From a virus, in IMG/VR virus record IMGVR_UViG_3300033551_000257, positions 1 to 41,776 of that record: DNA of 41,776 nucleotides. One strand, 5' to 3'. Position numbers and translations under genes: made by a program. Shown here piece after piece: positions 1-41,776 of this stretch (positions within the stretch are counted from its first letter, which is position 1; each line of letters starts with the position of its first letter). A model generated the notes under the pieces. That model had not been told where the DNA came from. It did not search any database and saw only the letters and a list, made by a program, of their open reading frames with translations.

Positions 1-237
1 CCCGATTGAGCGAGTGAGGTACGCGCGGAAGAAGCGCGGCCTCGGGCAAAAGGCGCTGAGTGAGTCCGCTGGTCTCTCTAACGCCTACGTGACGCATCTC
101 GAGCGCTCGCTGGACCCTGACCGGTCCGAGGGCACCGCGACCATCGAAAGCCCGTCCCTGGTCGTCCTGGAGCAGCTGGCGAATGCTTTGCGCGTGCCTG
201 CGGCGTGGCTGGTCCTCGGCGTCGAGCCTGAGCCCGA
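1..237. repeat. Terminal direct repeat, left copy (matches 41540-41776)
   Basis: Bases 1-237 reappear at 41540-41776 (offset 41,539) with a single difference: C at 110 versus T at 41649. The change is silent (CTG/TTG, Leu). The repeat falls in the middle of the Cro-like gene and has no end-like features. It is therefore most simply the overlap left when a circular or circularly permuted genome was assembled, not a true physical terminal repeat. It implies a unit genome of about 41,539 bp. Confidence 0.9.
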
Positions 238-277
238 CTGGGACGATCCGCCTGACACCGAGAGGGCGCACTCATGA
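1..277 (+). CDS. Cro-like XRE-family HTH regulator (3' part; gene starts at 41535)
   Basis: This is the body of a small DNA-binding protein. Its start codon lies at the other end of the window: ATG at 41535 reads through the circular join into codons beginning at base 2, giving 93 residues in all. The N-terminal half is a lambda-repressor/Cro-type helix-turn-helix, with the pattern RKKRGLGQKALSESAGLSN followed by YVTHLERS and a PSLVVLEQLANAL helix. It is the first gene of the right early operon, divergent from the repressor gene at 40989-41438, which is the position of cro. It probably represses the repressor promoter and tunes early transcription. Its stop overlaps the next start in ATGA at 274-277. 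A GTG at 14 could be a start if only this end were seen, but the upstream ATG sits directly behind a promoter and is preferred. Family and position are clear; the exact role is inferred. Confidence 0.85.
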   Translation, partial: PIERVRYARKKRGLGQKALSESAGLSNAYVTHLERSLDPDRSEGTATIESPSLVVLEQLANALRVPAAWLVLGVEPEPDWDDPPDTERAHS

Positions 278-3601: not shown

Positions 3602-3768
3602 GCGACGACAGGTGGACCGAGGAGCAGAAGGCGGCACACGAGGCGGCCAAGCGCATCCCGATCCGCAAGGCGCCTCCTGCGGTGCCCTGCCGCCAGTACG
3701 TCGACAAGCCGACCGTTACCGCCGAGGAGATCGAACGGTTCATGAAGAAGCTGGAGAAAAAGAAGTGA
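3598..3768 (+). CDS. Small charged hypothetical protein, 56 aa
   Basis: The GTG at 3598 overlaps the initiator stop (GTGA), and the TGA at 3766-3768 overlaps the GTG of the glycosyltransferase, so it bridges the replication and glycan modules. It is highly charged with a helical N-terminus (DRWTEEQKAAHEAAKR), a short central segment with one cysteine and a lysine-rich C-terminal helix. No family is recognised. Coupling on both sides is the main reason to believe it is translated. Confidence 0.55.
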   Translation: MSDDRWTEEQKAAHEAAKRIPIRKAPPAVPCRQYVDKPTVTAEEIERFMKKLEKKK

Positions 3769-6152
3769 AGCTGTCCTGTTGCCTTTTGGTCCGCGACGAC
3801 GCGAGCACCCTTCGCGCCTGCCTCGAGAGCATCCGGCCGCACGTGGACGAGCTGTGCGTGCTCGACACGGGCAGCGTGGACGAGTCGCCGGCGATCGCGA
3901 AGGACTACGCCGACCGCTGGTCACTGTTCACCAACTGCAACGACGCGCAGGGCCGCATCGAAGATTTCGCGGTGGCTCGGAACGCAAGCTTCGAACTGGC
4001 GACGGGCGACTGGGTCTGCTGGTTCGACGCGGACGACATCGTTCAGCAAGGCGAGAACCTGCGCAAGCTCGCTGCTGCCGCGCCGGACCGTTACTGCCGC
4101 TTCGTGATGCCGTACGAGTACGCGCACGACGACAGCGGCCGGGTAACGCTGCTGCAGTACCGCGAACGGCTGATGCGCCCACCGAGCCGGTTCGAGTGGT
4201 TCAGCCCGGTCCACGAGATTTGCATGCCGACCGGCCCGGACTGCGTCGACATCAAGGACGACTCGGTGCGGGTCATTCATCGGCAGCGCGAGTCGAAGAA
4301 GCAGCGCGAGCCGAACCGGAACTTGCGCATCCTGCAAAGCTACGTGAAGCGTGTCGGCGATGCGGACCCGCGCGCCCTGTACTACTACGGGCAGGAGCTG
4401 TTCCGGGCGAAGGACCTGGGCGGAGCGGCCCGAGCGTACAAGCGCGCCATCGAGCTCGACCGATGGGACGATCAGAAGTGCCGCGCGATGCTTGACTTGG
4501 GCTTCGTCTACGCCTCGGCCGGCTTCCACGAGGACGCGAACAAGTGGTTCACGGAAGCCATGTTCGTCCGCAACTGGCCCGAGCCGATGCTGGCACTCGG
4601 TCGCAGCTACTACCAGCTAGCCCGGCCCGAGGAGTTCGCGGTGACGCGGCAGCTCGACCCGGCACAGCTCAAGAACATCCGCATAGCTACGCAGTGGCTG
4701 TTCCGCGGCATCGAGACCGAGCCGCTACGGGACGCCCTGCTCTACACCGACCCGATGGAGCGAGCTCGAGCACTGGAGCTCCTGAGCGCCTGCACTGCCA
4801 TCCTGGGCGACCACGAGAAGACGCTGAAGGTCTGCCAGTGGGGCCTGGAGATTACGCCCGAGAACGCGACACTCCGGCACCACTACGAAGAGGCGAAGCG
4901 GGCGCTCAGGAAGGCTGAGGCGCACGCTGCTCTGGCTGCACTGCCGCCGCTCGGTGAACGCAAGGTCCGGATGCTGTCCGTACCGTCCGACCTCCGCGTC
5001 GAACCGCAGAAGCCCGAGCCGGGGAAGCTCGACTTGGTGTTCTACGTCGGCCATGGGGTCGAGCCGTGGACGCCTGAGACGTTCGAGAAGGGCGGCATGG
5101 GCGGCAGCGAAACGATGGCCTGGGAGCTCGCCAGGCGCCTCCGTAAGCTCGGGCACCGGGTCAGGCTGTACGGGCACTGCACCCCGGAGCAAGAGGGCCT
5201 ATACGAGGGCGTAGAGTGGCTAGACGCGGCCCGGTACCGGTCGGTCCGGTGCGACGTGCTCATCACGTCCAGACGGCCCGAGGCGGTCGACGACGAAGGG
5301 CTGAAGGCGTCGGCTCGAATCTTGTGGGTCCACGACGTCCACTGCGGCGATGCGCTGACCCCGAGGCGAGCAGCCCGACTGGACCGCATCCTGTGCCTGA
5401 GCAACTGGCACAAGGGCTTCTTCGAGCAGTGCTACCCGTGGCTGCCGGCCGAGAAGGTGCACGTCACGCGGAACGGCATCGACCTCAGCCGGTTCGACGG
5501 CACCGAGGAGCGTCACCCGCACCGAGCGGTCTACTCGTCGAGCCCGGACCGGGGCCTGCTGGCGGCGCTCCTGGCCTGGCCGACTGTGCGCGCCAGGGTC
5601 CCGGATGCAGAGCTACACGTGTTCTACGGCTTCAAGAACTGGCTGACGGTGGCCGAGGCGGTGGGGGACCACGCGCAGATCCAACACGCGCGGCACATCG
5701 CCAAGCTGCTCGAAGCGACTCCCGGCGTCGTGTTCCGGGACCGCATCGGGCAGAAGGAGCTGGCTCGCGAGTTCATGCGGGCCGGTGTCCTCGCGTATCC
5801 GACCTGGTTTTCGGAGACCTCGTGCGTCACCGCCATGGAGGCACAGGCTGCTGGTTTGCACGTGGTGACGAGCGACATCGCTGCGCTGTCGGAGACGGTG
5901 CACGTCGGCGCGCTGTTGGCATGGGACAGCCAGACCAGGGAGCCGACAGCAGGGTACATGGACCGGTTCGTTGATGAGGTGGTCGAGGACATGCGAGGCA
6001 GCTTCGAGGACGACCGGGCGGAAGCGATGCTCTGCGCCCGCGAGCACTTCTCCCTCGACTCCCTCGCCTCCGACTGGTCCGAGATGCTGCTCGAACTCGA
6101 GGCCGAACGGAAGCTCGAGCCGATGCCGCGTTTCGCCGAGGTGCGGCTGTGA
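3765..6152 (+). CDS. Bifunctional glycosyltransferase: GT2 - TPR - GT4 fusion, 795 aa
   Basis: Three regions in one chain. Residues 1-110 start a GT-A (family 2) domain: CCLLVRDDASTLRACLESI, VLDTGSVDES and the metal-binding DADD at 88-91. Residues about 200-390 are TPR-like helical pairs (ALYYYGQELFRAKDLGGAARAYKRAI and following). From about 420 a GT-B (family 4) domain runs to the end, with a GGSETMAWELARRL nucleotide-fold start, RNGIDLSRF linker, SSPDRGL motif and the E-X7-E signature SETSCVTAMEAQ. It should transfer two sugars or make and extend one linkage. The GTG at 3765 is chosen because it overlaps the preceding stop; upstream in-frame codons are not protein-like. The GT4 half resembles the separate enzyme at 8537-9718. 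The acceptor is unknown. Confidence 0.87.
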   Translation: MKLSCCLLVRDDASTLRACLESIRPHVDELCVLDTGSVDESPAIAKDYADRWSLFTNCNDAQGRIEDFAVARNASFELATGDWVCWFDADDIVQQGENLRKLAAAAPDRYCRFVMPYEYAHDDSGRVTLLQYRERLMRPPSRFEWFSPVHEICMPTGPDCVDIKDDSVRVIHRQRESKKQREPNRNLRILQSYVKRVGDADPRALYYYGQELFRAKDLGGAARAYKRAIELDRWDDQKCRAMLDLGFVYASAGFHEDANKWFTEAMFVRNWPEPMLALGRSYYQLARPEEFAVTRQLDPAQLKNIRIATQWLFRGIETEPLRDALLYTDPMERARALELLSACTAILGDHEKTLKVCQWGLEITPENATLRHHYEEAKRALRKAEAHAALAALPPLGERKVRMLSVPSDLRVEPQKPEPGKLDLVFYVGHGVEPWTPETFEKGGMGGSETMAWELARRLRKLGHRVRLYGHCTPEQEGLYEGVEWLDAARYRSVRCDVLITSRRPEAVDDEGLKASARILWVHDVHCGDALTPRRAARLDRILCLSNWHKGFFEQCYPWLPAEKVHVTRNGIDLSRFDGTEERHPHRAVYSSSPDRGLLAALLAWPTVRARVPDAELHVFYGFKNWLTVAEAVGDHAQIQHARHIAKLLEATPGVVFRDRIGQKELAREFMRAGVLAYPTWFSETSCVTAMEAQAAGLHVVTSDIAALSETVHVGALLAWDSQTREPTAGYMDRFVDEVVEDMRGSFEDDRAEAMLCAREHFSLDSLASDWSEMLLELEAERKLEPMPRFAEVRL

Positions 6153-6820
6153 TCAGGCTGAACATTGCGTCCGGCCCGAACGTCTTCCCCGACTGGATCA
6201 ACCTGGACCGGGACGACGTGGAAGAGACGTACCTGCGCCATCTGCGCCCGCTCACTCCGGCCGATGTCGTGACGTGGCCGGAAGAGCAGCGGCGGCTCGT
6301 TGAGTACATCGCGGCCGGCCGTATCACCTTCAAGCGGAAGGACCTGCGCGAGGGGTTCGCTGAGTACGCGGACGGGTCGGTCGATGCCATCTACTGCGGT
6401 CAGATGATTGAGCATCTCAACCCGCTACACGAGGTGCCGCAGTTCTTGGCGGAGTGTTACCGGATGCTGAAGCTAAGCGCGCGAATTCGGTTCACGACGC
6501 CGGACTTGGACAAGCTCCTGGACGCATACATCGACCACGAATGGAGCCACACCTGCATGAGCGACTTCAACCACGAGCAGCCGGACTACTACGCCAAGGC
6601 CTACGCCATGCCAGAGGACCAGCTCGCGTACATCATGTTCGGTGCCGGCGGCACAGCGGAGCACTACGAAGGGCACATGCACCTCTACACGAGCCGCTCT
6701 CTCGGGCAGCGACTACAGGCCGCCGGCTTCAAGCTGCTCGGCCCGAACAAGAGCGGCCCATTCAACGACTGCATCGACAAGGGCATGTCCCACTCGTTCG
6801 CTCTGGAGGCCGTCAAATGA
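6149..6820 (+). CDS. SAM-dependent methyltransferase (COG4627-like), 223 aa
   Basis: Class I methyltransferase fold of the short type often found in polysaccharide clusters. Its N-terminal glycine motif is LNIASGPNVFPDWINLD, then DGSVDAIYCGQMIEHL is the motif II/III region and ECYRMLKLSARIRFTTPDLDKL follows. Aromatic and histidine-rich stretches near 125-180 are typical of this family. It starts with GTG overlapping the glycosyltransferase stop and ends in ATGA overlap with the FkbM gene. It probably O-methylates a sugar or capping residue; the target is unknown. Confidence 0.82.
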   Translation: MIRLNIASGPNVFPDWINLDRDDVEETYLRHLRPLTPADVVTWPEEQRRLVEYIAAGRITFKRKDLREGFAEYADGSVDAIYCGQMIEHLNPLHEVPQFLAECYRMLKLSARIRFTTPDLDKLLDAYIDHEWSHTCMSDFNHEQPDYYAKAYAMPEDQLAYIMFGAGGTAEHYEGHMHLYTSRSLGQRLQAAGFKLLGPNKSGPFNDCIDKGMSHSFALEAVK

Positions 6821-7434
6821 TCCAACTCGTCGAAGGCACAATGCACCCCGCGTTTTCGCTGACCTGCCTGGAGGAGGAGCGTGACTTCAGGGAGCGGTAC
6901 TGGAAGGTCCGCGAAGGAGACGTCGTGGTCGATGCGGGCGCGTCGTACGGGGCCTACACGCTCACGGCGCTGGATGCCGGCGCGTCCTTCGTCTTTGCGT
7001 TCGAACCGGAGCCGAGCATCGCGGAAGACCTGCGGCGGAACCTTGCGGCGAACGGCTGGGAGGACCGGTGTGCAGTGGTCGACTCGGCGCTGTGGGACTG
7101 CCCGGCCGTGGTCGATATGAAGGACTACGCGCCGCACTGGCCAGCCCAGACCATCACGCGCGGCTACCCTGCGGCACGGCTGGACGACATGGTCGGTACG
7201 ATGTCCCGCCTCGACTGGTTCAAGCTGGACGTTGAGGGTGCCGAACTGCAAGCGCTGCGTGGCGCCGAGGACCTGCTGACCCGGCTCAAGCCGCGCGTCA
7301 TCGTCGAGTCGCACACGTTCCTTGACCCGGAGCTGACCGACAAGTGCCGCGCCATTCTGGCCGGCTACGGCTACAACACGTTCGAAGTGGTGCCGCGCGA
7401 CCCGTGCGAGATGCTGATTGCGAGGCCCCGATGA
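6817..7434 (+). CDS. FkbM-family methyltransferase, 205 aa
   Basis: It carries the FkbM signature: VVVDAGASYGAYTLTAL (SAM site, about residues 31-47), FAFEPEPSIAEDLRRNL and the FKLDVEGAELQALRGAE block near residue 130, ending with RVIVESH. Members O-methylate polyketides, glycans and other substrates. In a run of glycosyltransferases the likely substrate is a sugar hydroxyl. The ATG at 6817 overlaps the previous stop (ATGA). The length of about 205 residues is normal for a compact member. Confidence 0.87.
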   Translation: MIQLVEGTMHPAFSLTCLEEERDFRERYWKVREGDVVVDAGASYGAYTLTALDAGASFVFAFEPEPSIAEDLRRNLAANGWEDRCAVVDSALWDCPAVVDMKDYAPHWPAQTITRGYPAARLDDMVGTMSRLDWFKLDVEGAELQALRGAEDLLTRLKPRVIVESHTFLDPELTDKCRAILAGYGYNTFEVVPRDPCEMLIARPR

Positions 7435-8537
7435 GAATCGCTCTCATCGCCTCGCACGCATGGCCGCTCCCCTCTCCGGCCCGGACCGGTGACAGCCAGA
7501 TACTGCTCGACCTGTCCCGCTCGCTTGTGGAGATGGGGCATCAGGTCGACCTGTTTGCACCGGATGGCACCGTGGCGCCGGACGGTGTCGACCTGCGGAC
7601 GATGCCGTCCACTCCGAGCCGGTTCGAAGCGACGCCGAGCGCAAAGGACGCTGAGCTTTGTGCGCTGTGGCAGATGGCGCCGTGGTTTGAAGCTGCCGAC
7701 GTTATCCACGACTGCTCCGTTGAGAAGAGTTTCCACTCAGCATTCCCGCGCAGATCCCTCTGCACCATCTGGGGCGGCCCATGGCGCCACGCTCACCCGC
7801 CCCGCAACGTCGTGGCCCAGTCCCACGCTCAACGCGACCGTCTGCTCCGAGGCGCAACGGACTACGAAGGCACGGACACGCCGGAGATGGGCGGGCCGAA
7901 CGGGACGCCGCTGAAGGACTGCCGGGTGGTCTGGAACGGCATCGACACGGAGGCATACGAGCCGACCGGGAAGGGCAAGCAAGACTTCTTCTTGATGCTT
8001 GGCCGCTGGCATCCGGTCCGCGGCATAGAGCAGGGCATCGAGCTGGCCAAAGCGACCGGCATCAACCTGCTCATCGCCGGCACGGACCCAGTAGAGGACC
8101 ATCCGGCGCAGGCCGAGTACGCGCGCAGAATCTGCGAACTGGTCCGCGGCCACGACAACATCAGCGTTGAGTTCCTGCCGCCCGACCCGGAGCACCATCA
8201 GCGGAAGGTCGAGCTGTACAGCGACGCGAAGGCGCTCTTGTTCTTGCCGCAGTTCCAGGAGCCGTTCGGGCTGTCGCAGATTGAGGCGATGGCGTGCGGG
8301 ACGGCTGTGATCGCGCCGGACATTGGTAGCTGCAAGGAGGTCCTGGGCGTGGTCGGCGTGGAGGAGGGTATCAAGACTCTGACCGAGCAAGTGGATGGTT
8401 TCCCGCTGGAGGACTTCATCGCGGTGCAGGGCAGAATCTGTCGGCAGCGCGCCTGCGAGGAGTTCGACCGGATGACCATGGCGGAGAACTACCTCGGTCT
8501 CTACTACGATGTTCTGAACGGAAAGGGCTGGGGCTGA
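7431..8537 (+). CDS. Glycosyltransferase family 4 (GT-B), 368 aa
   Basis: GT-B enzyme with an N-terminal acceptor fold (MRIALIASHAWPLPSP, QILLDLSRSLVEMGHQVDLF) and a C-terminal donor fold: FFLMLGRWHPVRGIEQGI, LLIAGTDP, then the E-X7-E region EPFGLSQIEAMACGTAVIAP. VVWNGIDTEAY marks the linker. Such enzymes retain the configuration of a nucleotide-activated sugar during transfer. The ATG at 7431 is chosen because it overlaps the FkbM stop; the preceding in-frame codons are not protein-like. TGATG couples it to the next glycosyltransferase. Donor and acceptor are unknown. Confidence 0.88.
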   Translation: MRIALIASHAWPLPSPARTGDSQILLDLSRSLVEMGHQVDLFAPDGTVAPDGVDLRTMPSTPSRFEATPSAKDAELCALWQMAPWFEAADVIHDCSVEKSFHSAFPRRSLCTIWGGPWRHAHPPRNVVAQSHAQRDRLLRGATDYEGTDTPEMGGPNGTPLKDCRVVWNGIDTEAYEPTGKGKQDFFLMLGRWHPVRGIEQGIELAKATGINLLIAGTDPVEDHPAQAEYARRICELVRGHDNISVEFLPPDPEHHQRKVELYSDAKALLFLPQFQEPFGLSQIEAMACGTAVIAPDIGSCKEVLGVVGVEEGIKTLTEQVDGFPLEDFIAVQGRICRQRACEEFDRMTMAENYLGLYYDVLNGKGWG

Positions 8538-9718
8538 TGCGCATCTGCCTGCTTTTTGACCCCTGGATGCTGTCCTTCCGCGGCTCGCTCGACCTCGACG
8601 GCTACCGAGACGACCCGCGCGGTCTGAGCGGCAGCGAGATGGCGGCGGTGCGACTGCTGGAGGAACTGGCCGCGACGCATGAGCGTGTTGCGCTATTCAC
8701 CAAGACAGAGCGCACGGAGGCGTGGTGTACCAGCGACACGACGGCTTCGTACATCGCCCCATGGGATGCTCGCCGTGGCGGCCCGCACATCGACTGCGAC
8801 GAGTGGGACATCGCCATCAGCATCAACTGCCCCGACCCGCTCCGCGACGTACGGGCAAAGTTCAAGGTCTGCTACGCGCTGCTCAACGACTGGACCTTCG
8901 CAAAGGCCGGCTTCGAGCAGCACGTGGACCTGTTCGCCTCGCCCAGCGCGCCCCATCTCGAGCAGGTCATGACCAACCCGGCATGGCGCCGTGTCGAGGT
9001 GACGCCGGAGCATCCGAACGGAAAGGCGCAGTACGAGCCAGATGCGGCCAAGTGGTGCGTCGTGCCGCTGGGATGTGACCCGGAGCGGTACCAGGGCGCC
9101 GCGAAGGTACCGGGCAGGGTCGTCTACTGCTCGTCACCCGACCGCGGCCTGCACCATCTGCTGCAGGGGTGGCCCGCCATCAAACGTGCCGTTCCGCACG
9201 CTCACCTGCGCATCTTCTACCGGCTCGAGCCGTGGCTGCGCGGCTTCGACCAGACGCCGTTCTACCCTCCGATCGAACCGCTGCGAGCCAGGGCGCTCTA
9301 CGTCGAGGAGGCTCTACGGCGCATGTCCGGGCCGGAGTGGAACATAACGGTCTGCGATTCGGTTTCACGTGCAACGATCGAGCGCGAGATGGCCGAGGCG
9401 GAAGTGCTGGCCTACCCCTGCGACACGACGACATGGTCCGAGGGGTTCAGCTGCACGGTGCTCGAGGCGTGCGCGGCGAGGGCGTGCCCGGTCATCACGG
9501 ATTGTGATGCGCTGGGGAGCATCTACGGCGGGGCACGGTACGTCAAGCGCTCAACTGAAGACTGGCAGCGCTACTGGCGAGAGGGCGTCATCGAGTGCTT
9601 GCGATTCGAGAAGGAACGCAAGGCGGTCAACAAATGGGCCGAGGCCTTTGCAAAGGAGCACACATGGCGACACACAGCAGAACGACTCATGGAGGCCATC
9701 CGTGAAAGAATGGGCTGA
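8537..9718 (+). CDS. Glycosyltransferase family 4 (GT-B), 393 aa
   Basis: GT-B transferase with LSGSEMAAVRLLEELA at the N-terminal nucleotide-fold helix, VYCSSPDRGLHHLLQGWP at the start of the donor domain and WSEGFSCTVLEACAARACPV as the E-X7-E signature. SSPDRGL plus the following WP..VP.A.L.(I/V)FY pattern is shared with the C-terminal half of the fusion at 3765-6152, so the two are probably duplicates. It starts by TGATG with the preceding gene; its end is overlapped by an HNH gene start at 9702. Substrates are unknown. Confidence 0.87.
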   Translation: MRICLLFDPWMLSFRGSLDLDGYRDDPRGLSGSEMAAVRLLEELAATHERVALFTKTERTEAWCTSDTTASYIAPWDARRGGPHIDCDEWDIAISINCPDPLRDVRAKFKVCYALLNDWTFAKAGFEQHVDLFASPSAPHLEQVMTNPAWRRVEVTPEHPNGKAQYEPDAAKWCVVPLGCDPERYQGAAKVPGRVVYCSSPDRGLHHLLQGWPAIKRAVPHAHLRIFYRLEPWLRGFDQTPFYPPIEPLRARALYVEEALRRMSGPEWNITVCDSVSRATIEREMAEAEVLAYPCDTTTWSEGFSCTVLEACAARACPVITDCDALGSIYGGARYVKRSTEDWQRYWREGVIECLRFEKERKAVNKWAEAFAKEHTWRHTAERLMEAIRERMG

Positions 9719-10139
9719 AAGGTTCTGGGCAAAGGTCGACAAGCGCGGGCCCGACGAGTGCTGGCCGTGGGCAGCAGCGCTGAGCAACAGGGGATACGGT
9801 AAGTTCAGCATACCGAAGAACAGGTGGCTGCTGGCGCACCGCGTAGCGTGGCAGCTAACTCACGGGCTAATCCCGGAGGGGCAGATAGTGCGCCACAAGT
9901 GTGACAACCCTCTCTGCACCAACCCAGAGCACTTGGAGCTAGGTACGCACCAGGACAACTCTGACGACATGGCCAAGCGTCAGCGTCATGGGGCCAACGT
10001 GCGACTGAAGCCGGCAGTGGCGCGGGCAATCCGCGAGGCCGCAAAGACTGAGACAGGCCCGGCAGTGGCGCGCGCTTTCGGCGTTCACCCGGCGACCGTG
10101 TACCGGATTGCTAGTGGCAAGTACTGGAGGCATGCATGA
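9702..10139 (+). CDS. HNH endonuclease with C-terminal HTH, 145 aa
   Basis: Free-standing HNH homing-type endonuclease. FWAKVDKRGPDECWPW opens the fold, HRVAWQLTHGLIPEGQIV leads to the HNH site HKCDNPLCTNPEHLELGTH, and residues 105-140 form a helix-turn-helix (GPAVARAFGVHPATVYRI) for target binding. It starts at GTG 9702 inside the end of the glycosyltransferase and overlaps the cupin start (ATGA), so it is inserted neatly without breaking coupling. A second, related gene lies at 29015-29473 on the other strand. It is probably selfish and not part of the sugar pathway. Confidence 0.87.
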   Translation: MKEWAERFWAKVDKRGPDECWPWAAALSNRGYGKFSIPKNRWLLAHRVAWQLTHGLIPEGQIVRHKCDNPLCTNPEHLELGTHQDNSDDMAKRQRHGANVRLKPAVARAIREAAKTETGPAVARAFGVHPATVYRIASGKYWRHA

Positions 10140-10531
10140 ACAACAGCAGAGAAACTCATGGCGGAGATTCAATCACGCCTGGGCCAGACGTAAGCAACGC
10201 GGCTGGCACCATCCGGAACCTGAACGTCGCGGGCAACGTCTCGTACCTCGAGTGCAAGCCCGGTTCGCGCCGGTCGTCGCACTGGCACCGCTCGGACTGG
10301 CATTACCTGTACGTCATCTACGGCTACATGAACTACTACGAGCGGCCGGTGGGCAGCGACAGCAAGCCATCGTTCCGTCGCGTTGCGGCTGGCGAGATGG
10401 TGTTCACCGGGCCGAACGTCGAGCACTGGAGCGAGTTCCCGGTGATGACGGCCATGATCAGCGTCAGCCGGCTGCACCGGACGAACGAGCAGCATGAGGC
10501 CGACTTGGTCCGGGTGGGGTGGTTCGAATGA
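10136..10531 (+). CDS. Cupin-fold protein, likely sugar-modifying or sugar-binding, 131 aa
   Basis: A single-domain beta-barrel cupin. The first cupin motif is visible as HWHRSDWHYLYVIYGYMNYYE (metal-type histidines HWH and the later H), and the second as AAGEMVFTGPNVEHWSEFP with H in NVEHW. Neighbours (RmlB-like dehydratase, C-methyltransferase, glycosyltransferases) suggest an RmlC-like or isomerase-type step on a keto-sugar. A generic small-molecule-binding cupin cannot be excluded. It is coupled upstream and downstream by ATGA overlaps. Confidence 0.75.
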   Translation: MNNSRETHGGDSITPGPDVSNAAGTIRNLNVAGNVSYLECKPGSRRSSHWHRSDWHYLYVIYGYMNYYERPVGSDSKPSFRRVAAGEMVFTGPNVEHWSEFPVMTAMISVSRLHRTNEQHEADLVRVGWFE

Positions 10532-10707
10532 CGCCCGCTGCGGCAGCAGGATGGGCGGTAGCGTTCGTGATGACCTGCGCGTGGGCGTACGGGCTACATG
10601 CCCAGAACTACTGGAAGAAGGCGGCCGACACGTGGCGCAGTGCCGCTGTTCGCTGGGAGCGCGCCTCCAACAAATGGGAGCAGGTAGCTCGGGAGCTTGG
10701 AGGATGA
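10528..10707 (+). CDS. Small membrane-anchored helical protein, 59 aa
   Basis: The ATG at 10528 overlaps the cupin stop and the TGA overlaps the next ATG. Residues 1-25 form a hydrophobic N-terminal helix (AAAAGWAVAFVMTCAWAYGL), followed by a tryptophan-rich amphipathic helix (YWKKAADTWRSAAVRWERAS). It looks like an N-terminally anchored inner-membrane peptide. Its position inside the sugar cassette hints that it tethers enzymes to the membrane or acts on a lipid-linked glycan, but nothing in the sequence shows this. Confidence 0.6.
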   Translation: MTPAAAAGWAVAFVMTCAWAYGLHAQNYWKKAADTWRSAAVRWERASNKWEQVARELGG

Positions 10708-11906
10708 CCGACTTCCACATCCGCACCACATGCCGCTTGTGCCACTCGCCCGACCTCGAGCGGCTGCTGACGCTGAACGACACGCCGCTGGCGAATGAGC
10801 TGATGAAGTGGCCGGACGGTCTCGGCAATTTCCACCAAGACCGCTTCCCCCTCCATCTCGTCGGCTGCAAAGCGTGCGGCCACGTGCAGCTCCCCGTCGT
10901 GGTCGACCCGAAGCGGCTGTTCCCGCCGGACTACCCGTACCAGTCGGGGACGAGCCTAGCGTTTCACTCGCATCTCAAGGAGTTGGCATGGTCGCTGGTG
11001 GGCGAGGTTATCCCCCACTATCCGAAGAGGGGCCGCGTTCTCGACGTCGCGAGCAATGACGGGACATTCGTGTCCAAGCTCCGTGGCGCAGGGTTCAATG
11101 CGTACGGCGTCGACCCGTGCAGCCCCGAGGAGTTCGGCGTGCGGGCGTTCTTTACCGAGGAATGGGCAAGGGGCCAGGCCAGCAAGGTCGACTGCATCAC
11201 CGCCCTCAACGTTTTCGCCCACGTGGACGACCTCGACGACTTCACCCGCGGCGTAAGGACACTGCTCGAGCCGTGCGGGCTGTTCGTCGTCGAAGTCGGC
11301 TACCTGCCGGACGTCATCAAGCGCGACGCCTTCGACACCATCTACCACGAGCACGTCTCGTACCATCACCTGAGCCCGCTCGTCCGGTTCTTCCGCAAGC
11401 ACGGCATGACCATGGTCGACGCGCACCGCATCGACTCGCAGGGCGGCTCAGTGCGCATCTTCGTGCGGAACTGCAAGGACATGCACCGAGGCGGCGACGA
11501 TGGGCACAACGAGCCGAGCGCACGAATGCAAGACCTGCTCGACGAGGAGAGCCGCGCAGAACTCTGGGAAGGCGTGAGGCTGCTCGGCAACGTGCGAGCC
11601 GGTCAGGGTGTTCGAGGCTGGCGCGACTTCCTGAAGCTACGCGGTCCGTTCGTCTGCTACGGGGCGCCTGCCAAGCTCTGCACACTCATCCACGCGACGG
11701 ACCAGCCCGAGGCAATCGAGTACGTCGTGGACGACAACCCGAACAAGGTAGGCCGTTACGTGCCAGGAACGCGCATCCCCATCCTGCCCGTGTCGACGCT
11801 GTACGAGCGGAGGCCAAAGCGAGTGCTCATCACGGCGTGGAACTTCGCAGACGACATCAAGAAGCGGCACGCCGAGCTCGGCTGCGAATGGGTGGTGGGG
11901 CGATGA
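10704..11906 (+). CDS. Sugar C-methyltransferase (TylCIII/TcaB9-type), 400 aa
   Basis: Three-part layout of NDP-sugar C-methyltransferases. The N-terminal zinc site has C10-X2-C13 and C55-X2-C58 (CRLC, CKAC). The central SAM domain has VLDVASNDGTF at about 112-122 and the diagnostic YHEHVSYHH at 214-222. The C-terminal alpha/beta domain has YGAPAKLCTLIHA and VDDNPNKVGRYVPGT. Known members add a methyl to a carbon of a 4-keto-deoxysugar, giving branched sugars. The RmlB-like gene next door makes just that type of substrate. The ATG is coupled to the preceding stop, and the stop overlaps the dehydratase start. Confidence 0.88.
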   Translation: MTDFHIRTTCRLCHSPDLERLLTLNDTPLANELMKWPDGLGNFHQDRFPLHLVGCKACGHVQLPVVVDPKRLFPPDYPYQSGTSLAFHSHLKELAWSLVGEVIPHYPKRGRVLDVASNDGTFVSKLRGAGFNAYGVDPCSPEEFGVRAFFTEEWARGQASKVDCITALNVFAHVDDLDDFTRGVRTLLEPCGLFVVEVGYLPDVIKRDAFDTIYHEHVSYHHLSPLVRFFRKHGMTMVDAHRIDSQGGSVRIFVRNCKDMHRGGDDGHNEPSARMQDLLDEESRAELWEGVRLLGNVRAGQGVRGWRDFLKLRGPFVCYGAPAKLCTLIHATDQPEAIEYVVDDNPNKVGRYVPGTRIPILPVSTLYERRPKRVLITAWNFADDIKKRHAELGCEWVVGR

Positions 11907-12892
11907 CCAGCGTCCTCCTCACCGGCGGCGCCGGCTTCATCGGTAGCCACCTAGCCAGGTACATCCTGGAGCACACCGACTGGTCCGTCGTGGTCCTGGA
12001 CCGGCTCGACCCGGCCGGAGACCAGCGCAGGCTAGCCCCACTCGTCGAGCGCTTCCCGCGTCGCATGGGCATCGTCTGGCACGACCTACGCGCTGCCATC
12101 AACCCGGACCGGCTCAGGTCGTACGGTGACTTCCGCTACGTCGCGCACCTGGCGGCCGGCTCCCACGTCGACCGCTCCGTACGAGACCCGGTCGGCTTCG
12201 TGATGGACAACGTGCTCGGGACGGCGCATCTGCTCGAGTACGTCCGGCAGCACCAGCCGCACTGCGAGAAGGCGCTCTACTTCAGCACCGACGAGGTGTT
12301 CGGGCCGGCTGCAGAGGGCGAGGTGTTCGACGAGCTGGCGCGTTTCAACCCGGAGAACCCGTACGCCGCGAGCAAGGCCGGCGGGGAAGCCCTGTGCCCT
12401 GCCTACGCAGCCCAATACGGGATGCCGCTGGTAGTCTCGCACTGCTCGAACGCATACGGCCCGATGCAGGACCGAGAGAAGTTCATCCCACTCGCCGCCG
12501 AGAAGATTCGCACCGAGCAACTGGTCCAGATACATGCTCGAGCAGGCAAGCCATCGAGCCGACTCTACATCCACGTGGACGACGTGAGCCGAGCCGTCCT
12601 GACCATCTTGACCAAGGGCGGCGTCATCCACGACCCGAACAGCGGCCGGTACAACATCGTAGCCGCCGAGGAACTCAGCAACCTGCTCGTGGCCGAGATG
12701 ATTGCCGACGCCCTGGGCAAGCCGCTACGCGCCGAGCTGGTCGAGAACCCGCCGAACCGACCGAAGCCGGACATGCGCTACGCGCTCAGCGGTCAGCGGC
12801 TCGAAGCGCTCGGATGGGCCCCCGAAGTGCCGTTCGACGCTGGGCTACGCGATGCGCTCGGGCTGTACGAGATACAGCACCACCACGTCTAG
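11903..12892 (+). CDS. rmlB: NDP-hexose 4,6-dehydratase (RmlB-like extended SDR), 329 aa
   Basis: Extended short-chain dehydrogenase. NAD-binding GGAGFIG is at 8-14, then HLAAGSHVDRSVRDP, the catalytic FSTDEVFG block (Thr-Asp-Glu triad of dehydratases), NPYAASK (Tyr-X3-Lys) and HCSNAYGP. These are hallmarks of dTDP-glucose 4,6-dehydratase, which makes the 4-keto-6-deoxy intermediate of most deoxysugars. The ATG at 11903 overlaps the C-methyltransferase stop. It is the last gene of the sugar operon; no nucleotidyltransferase or ketoreductase is nearby, so the host must supply the activated sugar. The gene symbol reflects family similarity. Confidence 0.87.
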   Translation: MTSVLLTGGAGFIGSHLARYILEHTDWSVVVLDRLDPAGDQRRLAPLVERFPRRMGIVWHDLRAAINPDRLRSYGDFRYVAHLAAGSHVDRSVRDPVGFVMDNVLGTAHLLEYVRQHQPHCEKALYFSTDEVFGPAAEGEVFDELARFNPENPYAASKAGGEALCPAYAAQYGMPLVVSHCSNAYGPMQDREKFIPLAAEKIRTEQLVQIHARAGKPSSRLYIHVDDVSRAVLTILTKGGVIHDPNSGRYNIVAAEELSNLLVAEMIADALGKPLRAELVENPPNRPKPDMRYALSGQRLEALGWAPEVPFDAGLRDALGLYEIQHHHV

Positions 12893-24898: not shown

Positions 24899-27800
24899 TG
24901 GCGCACTCCGACAAGTACCAGGACGTGCTCATCAAGCCGGGGATGAACGAGAGCGTCGACCCGCGCCTAGCGCCGATGGGCACGCCGCGGAAGCTGGTGA
25001 ACGTCCGTACGAGGCGGGCTGCACGGTTCGAGAAGCGGCCGGGGACGGGCAGTATCGGTGCAAGCGGACTGCCCCCGGCGGCTACCGCTCGTTGGGTAGC
25101 AGAGATTGCGTCAGAGCCGGTGGTGTGCGCCGACGACGTCGCGTTTGGCAACCTCGTTGCCCCCAACATGTACCGCAAGAACTCCGCCGGCACATGGGAC
25201 CGGCTAGGCCGCCACGGGGTGAGCGTTCCGGAGCGGCGTTTCGGGGTTGCGCTGGCAGCGTCTGGGTCGTCGTCATTCGCCGCTGACGTGGGGCAGGAGC
25301 ATACCTGCGCAGTCGTCGGCGGGCTGCTCTACCTCGCCTATGCAGACGTCACGGCCGGCACAACGGTCACGATCTACCAAATCGATCCCGATGGCATCGT
25401 GCTCAGGCGGACGAGCCTATCTGACGCAGCTGAGCCGCGCCTCGTCTACGCGAACAGCGTTCTATACCTCGTCACCCGCGAGCCGGGCGGCAGCGGGACG
25501 GACATCGAGGTCAGGACCATCAGCTCGAACCTGACGCTCAGCTCAGAAACAACGCTCGGCTCGACGCTGGCTTCCGCGACGAGCCGTTTCGATGCTGCGC
25601 CGGTCGAGGGCGGAACAACCTGGGTGATCGCCTATCCAGAGTCGTCCATCGTGATGCGCATTCGGCGCATGAGTGGGACCACGTCGGCGGTGGACGACGC
25701 CGTGTCGACTCCAGCCGAGGCCACGTGCATCGGCATCACCGCATTCGAGGGCGAGCGGGTATGCGTTGCCTATGTGAGCGGCGGGACGTTGAAGGCGCTT
25801 GTGGCGACCACGTCGAGCCTGAGCAACAGCGGCGCGTTCAACGTGCGTGCAGCTGCCGGCGCTGAGACCTATGCGCATCAGTGCGGAGTGGTGCGCGTGG
25901 ATACAAACACGCATTTCATCATCGCTGGCGGCACCGATTCCGACACGGAGCCGCTGCTTAGCACGATCTTCACCGTAACCGCCAAGATCAGCACGTCGGC
26001 CGTCACGGTTGGGCCGATCAAACATTGGCACTACGGGACGACATCGAAACCGTGGACATACGGGGCGGCAGGGCAGCGGCGTGTGCTCGTCTGGGCGCAG
26101 AATGGGGCCGGGTACGCAGCCGGCCAGACCCAGCCTAAGAGCACTATTCTGGATGTTTCCGCGGTCTACGCATTCGCGGACGCCATCAGCTACGAGCACA
26201 GCGCTGGCTACGAGAGCGCTATCGGCCAGTCTCGCCACGTCCCCGAGGTGGCATCACTTGGGTCTGGTCGTCACGTTACGGTTATCCCATGGGACGACCC
26301 GGGGCCGCTATCCGGGATCGATGTGGTCGTTTGGTCGGATGCGTCGCCGTCTGAATCGATAGCGGCGGCTCACCGAGCGGCGCACGAGAGCGGCGGCGCC
26401 CTCTACATCTCCGGTGGTGCGCTGCAGGAGTGCGCTGAGGCCGCGGACCCGACCTACTCGGTGCAAATCCCAGAGAACGGGTTCCCGCACTACCCTGCCG
26501 TCACGCTCAACGTTGGCGTAGCCACTGGCGGCGCGCTCACGGCCGGGCAGGAGTACAACTATTGTGCGCTGTACCGCTGGCAAGATTCGGTCGGGCGCGT
26601 TCACAGGGGAGCACCTAGCGCAGTTAAGGCAGCGAGCCCGTCCCCGACTGGTATCTGGCTTACGACTCGCGTCCGCATCGCCACGCTCAGCGGTTCGGTC
26701 AAGGTCGGCGGCATGTCTGGCAACCCGGTGGCAGAGGTCTACCGTTCTTGGAACGGCGGGCCCTACTACTACGTGGGCAGCACCGGAGCGATCGACGCGG
26801 TGTCGGTCAACGATGTCTCGACGACGTACGACGACATCATTGCTGACACTACAGTCGCGTCGAACCACGTTCTTTACACGAGTCTGGACATCCTGCCGAC
26901 CGAGCCTCCGAGCGGGGCACGGCTCATGTGCCAGGGCGGCCAGCGCCTCTTCACGGTCGGCTGGCGCGAGAACACGGTCCAGTTTTCGAAGCTCTACGTG
27001 GCGACTGCACCGTGGGAGTTCGTCGACGACGATACGTTCCGCATCTCTGTTCCGAGCCGCATCACGGCTCTTGGCTGGATGGATGGCGCGCTCGTCATCT
27101 TCTGCGCCTCTGCCATCTACATCGTCACCGGCGACGGGCCGAACGATCAAGGCGTCGGAGCGTTCAGCGACCCGCGGCAGCTACCCGCAGCGGTGGGCGC
27201 CGATTCGCCGCATGTTGTCGAGGTCGCAGAAGGCCTCATGTACAAGGGCGGCGGCACCATCTGGCTGCTCCCGCGTGGCTTCGGCCCGCCCCAGCCGGAC
27301 GGCGACGCGATCCAGGAGACGCTTGGGCGCTTCCCGCACCTACGCGCGGCGTTCAAGGCGGCCAACGCTGACGACGACTGCACGCACTTCGTCCTGGCCA
27401 GTGCGGACCTGCCCGGGGCGTCTACCTACGTTGCCGTCCGGGACAACCGCTACGGCTCGTGGTCGCTCGACGACATAGACGGAGAGGTCGGGGCAGCGGC
27501 GGCAGTAGACGGCAAGTTCACCTGGCTCCTGCCGCAGTGGAGCGCAACTACCCACGTCCCGGCTCGCCAGTTCGGCGTGAGCCAGTACCAGGACTACAGC
27601 TCGCAGGGCGCTTCCACCTGGGTCGAGCAGCGCATCGAGTTCGGCGACTGGCGCCCGTTCGGGGTGCTCGGCCAGGGCAGGCTCGGTCGGGTGGGTGTGC
27701 TCGGCGCGTTCAACGGCGCCGCGAACGGGCCGCCACTCAACGCCGTGTTCACCATCGACGAGTCTGTCCAGGTCGTTCAGCAGATCGCAGTCAGCGGCTC

Positions 27801-40227: not shown

Positions 40228-40463
40228 TCGGCAGCCTCCATCGCCGGCGCCGGAATCGTCGGCCTCTCCTCGTTGATGAAGCTCTCCTCCTGCTCCGCCC
40301 AGCACGCCGCGAGCCGATGCGCTTCGTCCCAGTCGGCGTGTTTGACGGTGTGCGTGATGTCCCACGACTTCTTCAGCGCCGTGATGTGCCAGGTGTTGAA
40401 CGCGGCTGACCAGTAGGGGACGAAGTGCCAGCCCTTCTTTACCAGCGCGGGAACAGCGCTCAT
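40224..40463 (-). CDS. Small hypothetical protein, 79 aa
   Basis: ATG at 40463, overlapping the stop of the first left-operon gene (ATGA). Tryptophan-rich centre (KKGWHFVPYWSAAFNTWHITALKKSW) then HADWDEAHRLAACWAEQEESF. Compact alpha/beta appearance. No family is recognised. It is coupled downstream by ATGA. Confidence 0.55.
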   Translation of the reverse strand: MSAVPALVKKGWHFVPYWSAAFNTWHITALKKSWDITHTVKHADWDEAHRLAACWAEQEESFINEERPTIPAPAMEAAE

Positions 40464-40636
40464 TTGTTCCCTCCCGCCGCCCTCGGCAGCAGTTCGAGCA
40501 GCTCGCGGCACTTGGCCAACGGACGAGCTTGCCGGTCGACGATGCGGCTCAACTCGTCGGCGTCGGCGCCTTCCGCTTCGATGGGCTGCTGCTCGTCGGT
40601 CTCCTCGAACGCGATGATCAGGAATCGGCGTGTCAT
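40460..40636 (-). CDS. First gene of the left operon, small protein, 58 aa
   Basis: ATG at 40636 with GGAGGAG five to seven bases ahead, the strongest ribosome site in this operon. The protein starts TRRFLIIAFEETDEQQ and ends in a helix with LAKCRELLELLPRAAGG. No family is recognised. It lies about 97 bases downstream of the left promoter and is the first gene it would drive, the position of lambda N, but there is no arginine-rich motif to suggest antitermination. Confidence 0.6.
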   Translation of the reverse strand: MTRRFLIIAFEETDEQQPIEAEGADADELSRIVDRQARPLAKCRELLELLPRAAGGNK

Positions 40637-40732: not shown

Positions 40733-40768
40733 GGTTAGAGCTGTAACCTGAGTTAGCGCGCTAATCAA
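40733..40768 (-). promoter_or_regulatory. PL: Left early promoter with two operators
   Basis: On the minus strand TTGATT (40768-40763), a 17-base spacer and TACAGC (40745-40740) form a promoter for the left operon. Two 16-bp inverted repeats cover it: GGTTAG-AGCT-GTAACC at 40733-40748 over the -10 and start, and AGTTAG-CGCG-CTAATC at 40751-40766 over the -35 and spacer, 18 bp centre to centre. The same elements occur at the right promoter (41496-41531); the two 36-bp stretches agree at 28 positions. Repressor control of both is the natural reading. Confidence 0.75.
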
Positions 40769-40988
40769 GTCCCTTGATACAGAAATCGACCCGTCTCATT
40801 CTGGGCCCCTCACACACGCCTATTGCGCTGTTGCTGTTCGCCTCAGTAGGGTGGCCGGTCCAATGGTCGGGATCATTGAGCCGGGGCGGCTCGTTCTCTT
40901 CCGACGCATCGCGGGGCACCTAGTCCCCTGGCGCGTTATTGAAGGGGACGCGGCAAAGCTACAGGTGGCACTGGCGGCTGCTCGCGAT
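40769..40988. other. Region between left promoter and repressor end; no supported gene
   Basis: Two hundred and twenty bases with no supported gene. A plus-strand frame opens at GTG 40851 and begins with VGIIEPGRLVLFRRIAGHLVPWRVI, but it continues antisense through the repressor gene to 41252 and has no ribosome site, so it is not called. The stretch should hold the 3' end of the repressor mRNA. No clear T-tailed hairpin is seen. Confidence 0.4.
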
Positions 40989-41438
40989 CTAACGGTCGCG
41001 GCGGGGGAGGTCGGAGGATGGGCGAATGCGCTCCGCCTCGGCCTCGATCCGACGGAACCAATAGATCGCCGGGGGGTCGTCGTCCCGCTTTTCTCGCATC
41101 ACGGCTTGGATAGCGGCGGCGGGGAAGTCGAGCTTGCGCGCGGCATCAACGGCCCTGGCCCTCGCCGGGTAGATGTCGACCGGGAGAGCGGAGTCTTCCG
41201 CACTGGCGTTCCCGACGAGCTCGGCGAGGCTGATGCCGAGGGCTCCAGCTAGGGCCTCTGCAGTGCTCTGGCGGAAAGTGGCCTTGGAATCTCGCTCGGC
41301 TCGGCTAATGAAATTCGCCAACCACTGGGGTGACAGCCCGGCAGCGAGGGCCATCTCTTTTTCGCTGCTGTAGAGGCCGCTTTTGATGGCCTCCTGCACC
41401 AGGCGGCGGACTCGGTGAGCGAGAATTTCGCGCGGCAT
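40989..41438 (-). CDS. CI-like lysogeny repressor, 149 aa
   Basis: Leftward gene, divergent from the Cro-like gene. An N-terminal helix-turn-helix is visible at about residues 24-45 (SSEKEMALAAGLSPQWLANFI), then a helix with TAEALAGALGISLAEL. The C-terminal 70 residues are not an S24 peptidase (no Ser-Lys self-cleavage pattern), so it should not be cleaved the way lambda CI is. The ATG at 41438 is chosen because an operator lies at 41454-41469, upstream of it; a GTG at 41495 would give 168 aa with that operator inside the gene. No ribosome site precedes either start. It should bind the five operators listed here. Confidence 0.78.
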   Translation of the reverse strand: MPREILAHRVRRLVQEAIKSGLYSSEKEMALAAGLSPQWLANFISRAERDSKATFRQSTAEALAGALGISLAELVGNASAEDSALPVDIYPARARAVDAARKLDFPAAAIQAVMREKRDDDPPAIYWFRRIEAEAERIRPSSDLPRRDR

Positions 41439-41453
41439 TTCGTAAACGATGCC

Positions 41454-41469
41454 GCTTAGTTGGCTAACC
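41454..41469. promoter_or_regulatory. Operator near the repressor start
   Basis: GCTTAG-TTGG-CTAACC is a 16-bp inverted repeat with the same half-sites as the paired operators. Its centre is 44 bp from the middle operator of the right promoter. It lies just upstream of the chosen repressor start, where it could autoregulate repressor synthesis, like OR3 in lambda. Confidence 0.6.
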
Positions 41470-41495
41470 GTGAAAGGGGTGCCGGTGTTCAGCAC

Positions 41496-41531
41496 TTGAT
41501 TACGCCGCTAACCCCGGTTACAACCGTAACC
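41496..41531 (+). promoter_or_regulatory. PR: Right early promoter with two operators
   Basis: TTGATT (41496-41501), a 17-base spacer and TACAAC (41519-41524) point to the Cro-like gene. Operators GATTAC-GCCG-CTAACC (41498-41513) and GGTTAC-AACC-GTAACC (41516-41531, perfect 6-bp arms) cover it, 18 bp centre to centre. The start site should fall at about 41531-41535 and the Cro ATG is at 41535, so the transcript would have almost no leader. Layout is the mirror of the left promoter. Confidence 0.75.
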
Positions 41532-41534
41532 CGG

Positions 41535-41776
41535 ATGACCCCGATTGAGCGAGTGAGGTACGCGCGGAAGAAGCGCGGCCTCGGGCAAAAGGCGCTGAGT
41601 GAGTCCGCTGGTCTCTCTAACGCCTACGTGACGCATCTCGAGCGCTCGTTGGACCCTGACCGGTCCGAGGGCACCGCGACCATCGAAAGCCCGTCCCTGG
41701 TCGTCCTGGAGCAGCTGGCGAATGCTTTGCGCGTGCCTGCGGCGTGGCTGGTCCTCGGCGTCGAGCCTGAGCCCGA
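41535..41776 (+). CDS. Cro-like regulator, 5' part (continues at base 1 in the circle)
   Basis: The ATG at 41535 opens MTPIERVRYARKKRGLG and runs off the window end in frame; through the 237-base overlap it continues as the gene ending at 277, for 93 residues in all. This copy supplies the true start, which is missing from the other end. No ribosome site precedes the ATG, and the right promoter's predicted start lies within about 5 bases of it, so translation may be leaderless. Confidence 0.83.
   Translation, partial: MTPIERVRYARKKRGLGQKALSESAGLSNAYVTHLERSLDPDRSEGTATIESPSLVVLEQLANALRVPAAWLVLGVEPEP
41540..41776. repeat. Terminal direct repeat, right copy (matches 1-237)
   Basis: Second copy of the 237-base overlap; the only difference is T at 41649 for C at 110. 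The mismatch suggests either a mixed population or a sequencing error. Circular closure at this point preserves the reading frame of the Cro-like gene exactly, which supports the closure. Confidence 0.9.

Follow-up and report, generated by a model that had tools for sequence, protein, structure and literature searches.

Near the right-hand end of the window, as we call the whole 41,776-nucleotide stretch of viral DNA analyzed here, a leftward helix-turn-helix (HTH) gene is surrounded by copies of a 16-bp palindrome. What do these palindromes control, and which protein reads them? The sequence argues strongly for an immunity region, one that governs lysogeny in a temperate phage, in the form of a five-operator repressor switch laid out like those of λ and N15. 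A first-pass annotation had read the locus as a lysogeny switch, and our analysis supports that reading. The record is circular, in that its first 237 bases (1–237) are a repeat of its last 237 (41540–41776). A single C/T difference (position 110 versus 41649), synonymous in the Cro-like gene, separates the two copies. The repeat may thus reflect variants that overlapped in the assembly.

Putative operators and twin promoters

All five of the dyads that had been reported are present in the window. Two are on the left, at 40751–40766 (left operator 1, AGTTAGCGCGCTAATC, 19.3 bits) and 40733–40748 (left operator 2, GGTTAGAGCTGTAACC, 22.4 bits), and two are on the right, at 41498–41513 (right operator 1, GATTACGCCGCTAACC, 18.6 bits) and 41516–41531 (right operator 2, GGTTACAACCGTAACC, 19.3 bits). 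As had been described, the start-to-start step within each pair is 18 bp on both sides. The fifth (repressor-proximal operator, GCTTAGTTGGCTAACC, 41454–41469, 16.3 bits) does lie upstream of the repressor start, with the end of the dyad 16 bp from the ATG (41438). The proposed consensus, GGTTAS-N4-STAACC, fits the sites, except that the left site at 40751 deviates from it at two positions.

The five dyads exceed by far what chance would provide. Allowing up to two mismatches, GGTTASNNNNSTAACC has six matches in the window, as compared with 1.59 ± 1.36 in shuffled sequences. Five of these are the sites listed above, and the sixth (26480, two mismatches) is the sole one outside the region. The first-pass annotation had called for a scan of the full circle, and a matrix built from the five sites ranks them first to fifth, with scores of 22.4 to 16.3 bits, followed by a gap to a sixth-best match of 10.8 bits. 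Even with leave-one-out matrices every site ranks between second and sixth among 41,539 positions, in or beside the top group. Thus, far from being scattered in number through coding regions, which would have spoken against an operator role, further matches to the consensus, at up to two mismatches, amount to the single one at 26480.

Each operator pair overlaps promoter-like boxes that conform to the pattern put forward earlier, TTGATT-17-TACA(A/G)C. The left promoter, PL (40740–40768, minus strand), consists of TTGATT (40768–40763), a 17-bp spacer, and TACAGC (40745–40740), and its TTGATT-17 arrangement recurs in the related phage L009. The right promoter, PR (41496–41524, plus strand), consists of TTGATT (41496–41501), a 17-bp spacer, and TACAAC (41519–41524). 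The register is the same in both: the first operator starts with base 3 of the −35 hexamer, and the −10 hexamer lies within the second. The 36-bp modules that contain them, TTGATTAGCGCGCTAACTCAGGTTACAGCTCTAACC (left, minus strand) and TTGATTACGCCGCTAACCCCGGTTACAACCGTAACC (right, plus strand), are identical at exactly 28 of 36 positions, as had been claimed. In 500 rounds of dinucleotide shuffling applied to two 100-bp stretches, left and right, which were picked by hand, the match never rose above 25. Nor did any other pair of inverted 36-mers lying 350 to 1,000 bp apart anywhere in the circle exceed 25, and the PL/PR pair is therefore the best. The −10 boxes are weak relative to the σ70 consensus, and the two promoters went unreported by a σ70 scanner because these boxes are without a final T.

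The fifth operator sits in the spacer of a putative repressor promoter (41446–41474, minus strand), a weak match to consensus composed of TTCACG (41474–41469), 17 bp, and CATCGT (41451–41446). A transcript initiated there would begin one base before the repressor ATG. On the right, the ATG of the cro-like gene (41535) is only 10 nt past the −10 box of PR, a spacing that would leave its mRNA with about 4 nt of leader and no Shine–Dalgarno sequence. The leftward operon under PL opens with an ATG gene for a 58-aa product (40460–40636, minus strand), which is preceded by GGAGGAG and lies about 90 nt downstream of PL; the operon includes a gene for a RecE-like exonuclease.

Putative repressor and Cro-like protein

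The leftward gene (40989–41438, minus strand) encodes a 149-aa protein in which a C-terminal domain follows a divergent HTH. The rightward gene (41535–41776 continuing through 1–277, plus strand), which crosses the junction of the circle, encodes a 93-aa protein with a plain XRE HTH (HTH_3, E = 5.5e-9); it stands first in the rightward operon and is followed there by the integrase gene. The statement that the repressor lacks the usual self-cleaving domain held up: Pfam detects an HTH only and no S24 peptidase, and the C terminus is predicted to be all-helical. In an AlphaFold model of the protein (mean pLDDT 79), a disordered linker joins the five helices of the HTH part to three helices at the C terminus. 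Its best match in the PDB, over nearly the full length, is DdrO (E = 5e-3), although the match is moderate (TM 0.37–0.43, with a low-confidence linker and a three-row alignment). By its model, then, the repressor looks like a member of the stress-cleaved DdrO family, in which five HTH helices are likewise followed by three C-terminal helices and cleavage by IrrE falls in the loop that connects helices 7 and 8 (PMC8072749).

The relatives of the repressor point in the same direction as the DdrO-IrrE and ImmR-ImmA systems (PMC8072749), in that several of them precede genes for M78 metallopeptidases. A Peptidase_M78 (ImmA/IrrE-like) gene directly follows, in the same orientation, the gene for a repressor relative in L015 (where the M78 gene occupies L015:6545-7123), L107, L116, and L118, which are Myxococcota genomes and one virus contig. 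The match in L118 scores a little under the threshold of Pfam, and L131 could be added as a fifth case with our own profile only. (In the M78 proteins of L015 and L107, HExxE replaces HExxH.) The C-terminal motif of the repressor, YPNRARAV..AAR, is also present in regulators of Myxococcota. Unlike these neighborhoods, neither the window record nor L009 contains an M78 gene, and an M78 route to induction, with cleavage of the repressor as its hypothetical step, would hence need an enzyme of the host. Because the repressor has a predicted DdrO-like helical dimerization domain in place of a self-cleaving one, an outside agent of some kind is most likely required for repression to be lost.

Which of the two proteins maintains lysogeny? 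PL and PR share paired operators and would shut together, so it is the gene whose promoter has a single operator that could still be expressed in a lysogen. The argument favors, short of proof, the earlier assignment of the leftward protein as repressor and the rightward one as Cro-like. The roles could in principle be reversed, with the rightward 93-aa protein as maintenance repressor and the leftward 149-aa protein as its Cro-like antagonist, an arrangement that we consider unlikely. It would suit the facts that, of the two, the rightward protein conforms better to the XRE type, that several of its PHROG matches are named repressors, and that its gene is followed, in the same orientation and operon and at a distance of 0.7 kb, by the integrase gene, int (1014–2237). 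But because PR has the same paired operators as PL, the product of PR would be shut off along with the leftward lytic operon. Moreover, the extra, DdrO-like C-terminal domain that is typical of repressors sits on the leftward protein, and it is the relatives of the leftward protein that adjoin M78 antirepressor-type genes.

Conservation in related phages

Direct searches with the repressor and the Cro-like protein in IMG/VR and with the region in INPHARED revealed no close relative; an exact scan of IMG/VR for the promoter pattern gave no match, and the RecE-like protein, used as a query, retrieved no relative. Related phages were reached instead by searches anchored on the integrase. One of these, L009, has a homologous repressor (44% identity) and a homologous Cro. 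When the window matrix was applied to L009, the two best sites in the locus were GGTTAGTCGAGTAATC (3434), which is at the repressor start and is the equivalent of our fifth operator, and GATTAGGAAACTAATC (2710), which covers a left promoter with TTGATT and a 17-bp spacer. The right-hand pair over PR is degenerate and half conserved: the 18-bp step is kept, and each site retains one good arm. The PL/PR match in L009 is non-significant, being reached by 39 of 500 shuffles.

These findings bear on two further interpretations of the dyads. It is improbable that they serve only the Cro-like protein or a host regulator, with lysogeny being governed elsewhere in the genome. It is true that Cro and the repressor differ in the set of operators they bind in phiKO2 and PY54 (PMC4997575), but in the window the sites are confined to the surroundings of the repressor gene, and L009 keeps the same site along with both homologous proteins. 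Hardly any credence can be given to an origin of the repeats by chance or as leftovers of a duplication: an inverted duplication could have produced the two 36-bp modules, but the counts are far above those in shuffles, and duplication alone fails to explain the dyad symmetry within sites, the promoter register, and the conservation in L009.

The case for a repressor switch is extended by other phages with related integrases, in which the layout of outward promoters is the same and the dyad sequences are unrelated to the window operator. In L003/L005, L004, and L012 an HTH gene is flanked on the left by tandem dyads, spaced 16–17 bp, and on the right by dyads related to these; in L006 each flank has just one dyad, and the two match. 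Their PL/PR modules match at 25 (L003/L005), 24 (L004), 33 (L012), and 25 (L006) of 36 positions, scores that none of 500 shuffles reached. Thus, the geometry is conserved while the operator changes. The modules of L012 (3854–3889 and 4321–4356), identical at 33 of 36 positions, are closer to each other than are those of the window at 28. L015 was considered as a carrier of the window operator and rejected: the C terminus of its repressor is related, but the operator is absent, and two ATAA-type sites near the repressor gene are only suggestive.

The short distance between promoter and start codon is likewise shared, in that the first start codon is 5–8 nt past the −10 box in L003, L004, L012, and L015 and on the left side of L009. 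Judging from these spacings, the mRNAs for the Cro-like proteins are probably leaderless or nearly so, with starts 5–10 nt past the −10 box.

A further small gene (40863–41252, plus strand) lies between PL and the repressor gene, is convergent with the latter, and overlaps its 3′ half in antisense. It is conserved in L009: the non-overlapping part of its product aligns to the L009 counterpart with a score of 78, as against 12 or less for shuffled proteins, and the differences between the two genes (16, 14, and 31 by codon position) are concentrated at the third. L003 and L004 have weakly similar genes in the equivalent position, the locus in L012 and L006 is too short to hold such a gene, and a family search with the window product gave no match. 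There is no operator near its start, and the gene may therefore be expressed in the lysogen. Its position recalls that of rexAB in λ, its orientation being opposite. The first-pass annotation was silent on this conserved gene, as it was on the near-leaderless starts and on the resemblance of the repressor to DdrO/ImmR.

A clue to the site of integration is found within int itself, where the minus strand at about 2070–2115 reads as the 3′ half of a tRNA gene with a CGT anticodon loop, Thr-like. An element 88% identical to this tRNA half is present in the L003 contig. Given a tRNA 3′ half within the integrase frame, attP is probably located inside int, as in phage Mx8; a tRNA-based search for attB in a few myxobacterial genomes found none. 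The host is probably a member of the Myxococcota, as judged from two features alone, the integrase relatives and the repressor C-terminal domain found in Myxococcota genomes. Elsewhere in the window, a long series of glycosyltransferase-, nucleotide-sugar epimerase-, and methyltransferase-like genes runs from 3612 to 12892, between the integrase and terminase genes, which is large for a 41.5-kb phage. Directly 5′ of the gene for the terminase large subunit, 14143–14523 matches a GroES-like co-chaperonin (PHROG 3188, E = 6e-8).

The proposed switch and its precedents

We propose that a dimer of the leftward HTH repressor (41438–40989) would bind the five palindromes, two over the −35 and −10 boxes of PL, two over those of PR in the same register, and one in the repressor's own promoter. 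In a lysogen, PL and PR would be shut together and the repressor would limit its own synthesis, whereas loss of the repressor would open PL and PR together. The Cro-like protein, made from an almost leader-free mRNA, probably competes for some of the operators. The agent of induction could be a host metallopeptidase of the ImmA/IrrE type, another protease, or an antirepressor.

The closest known arrangement is immB of N15 and phiKO2, with five 16-bp operators, three between the repressor gene and cro and two far to the left, bound by a prophage repressor (PMC4997575). As in the window, cro is divergent and the repressor is without the serine and lysine residues of self-cleavage. The likeness, as compared here, is one of layout. 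The operator sequence there is T-A-N10-T-A, the prophages are linear plasmids whose left operators control a replication gene, whereas our phage has an integrase, and the window has an extra convergent gene between PL and the repressor gene. The locus had been said to offer a directly readable regulatory code for a phage of this kind. The operators are indeed legible; with N15 and phiKO2 as precedent (PMC4997575), the locus is less unusual than this implied.

With λ (OL/OR) the window shares a repressor gene that lies between outward promoters with one common set of dyad operators, a Cro-like gene first on the right, and recombination genes on the left. It differs in having two operators per promoter rather than three, an integrase gene on the right-hand side, and a repressor without a self-cleaving domain. 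Myxococcus phage Mx8 (NC_003085, PMC6070905) has attP inside its integrase gene, where that of our phage probably lies too, and a myxobacterial host is likely for both. As a relative it was rejected: its Imm and integrase have no phmmer match to window proteins, and its imm region is without a twin-promoter repeat.

Thus, the five-operator layout is an already known, N15-like one, found here in what are probably phages of myxobacteria. It is conceivable, though we hold it only tentatively, that these phages represent a soil lineage, probably of Myxococcota, defined by near-leaderless twin promoters with paired operators and a DdrO/ImmR-type repressor whose inactivation requires a metallopeptidase acting in trans, supplied by the host if the phage lacks one, several members having a small convergent gene outside the operators, with the geometry fixed and the operator and HTH variable. 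If so, turnover of operator and HTH at fixed geometry would have created a natural set of mutually blind switches. The related phages do show a promoter–operator geometry that is kept while the operator sequence turns over, and the locus offers an operator code that can be read and tested, in phages probably of Myxococcota, a group for which few lysogeny switches have been described. It also raises, as a testable question, whether induction in these phages may be SOS-independent and proceed by a route of the DdrO/IrrE type.
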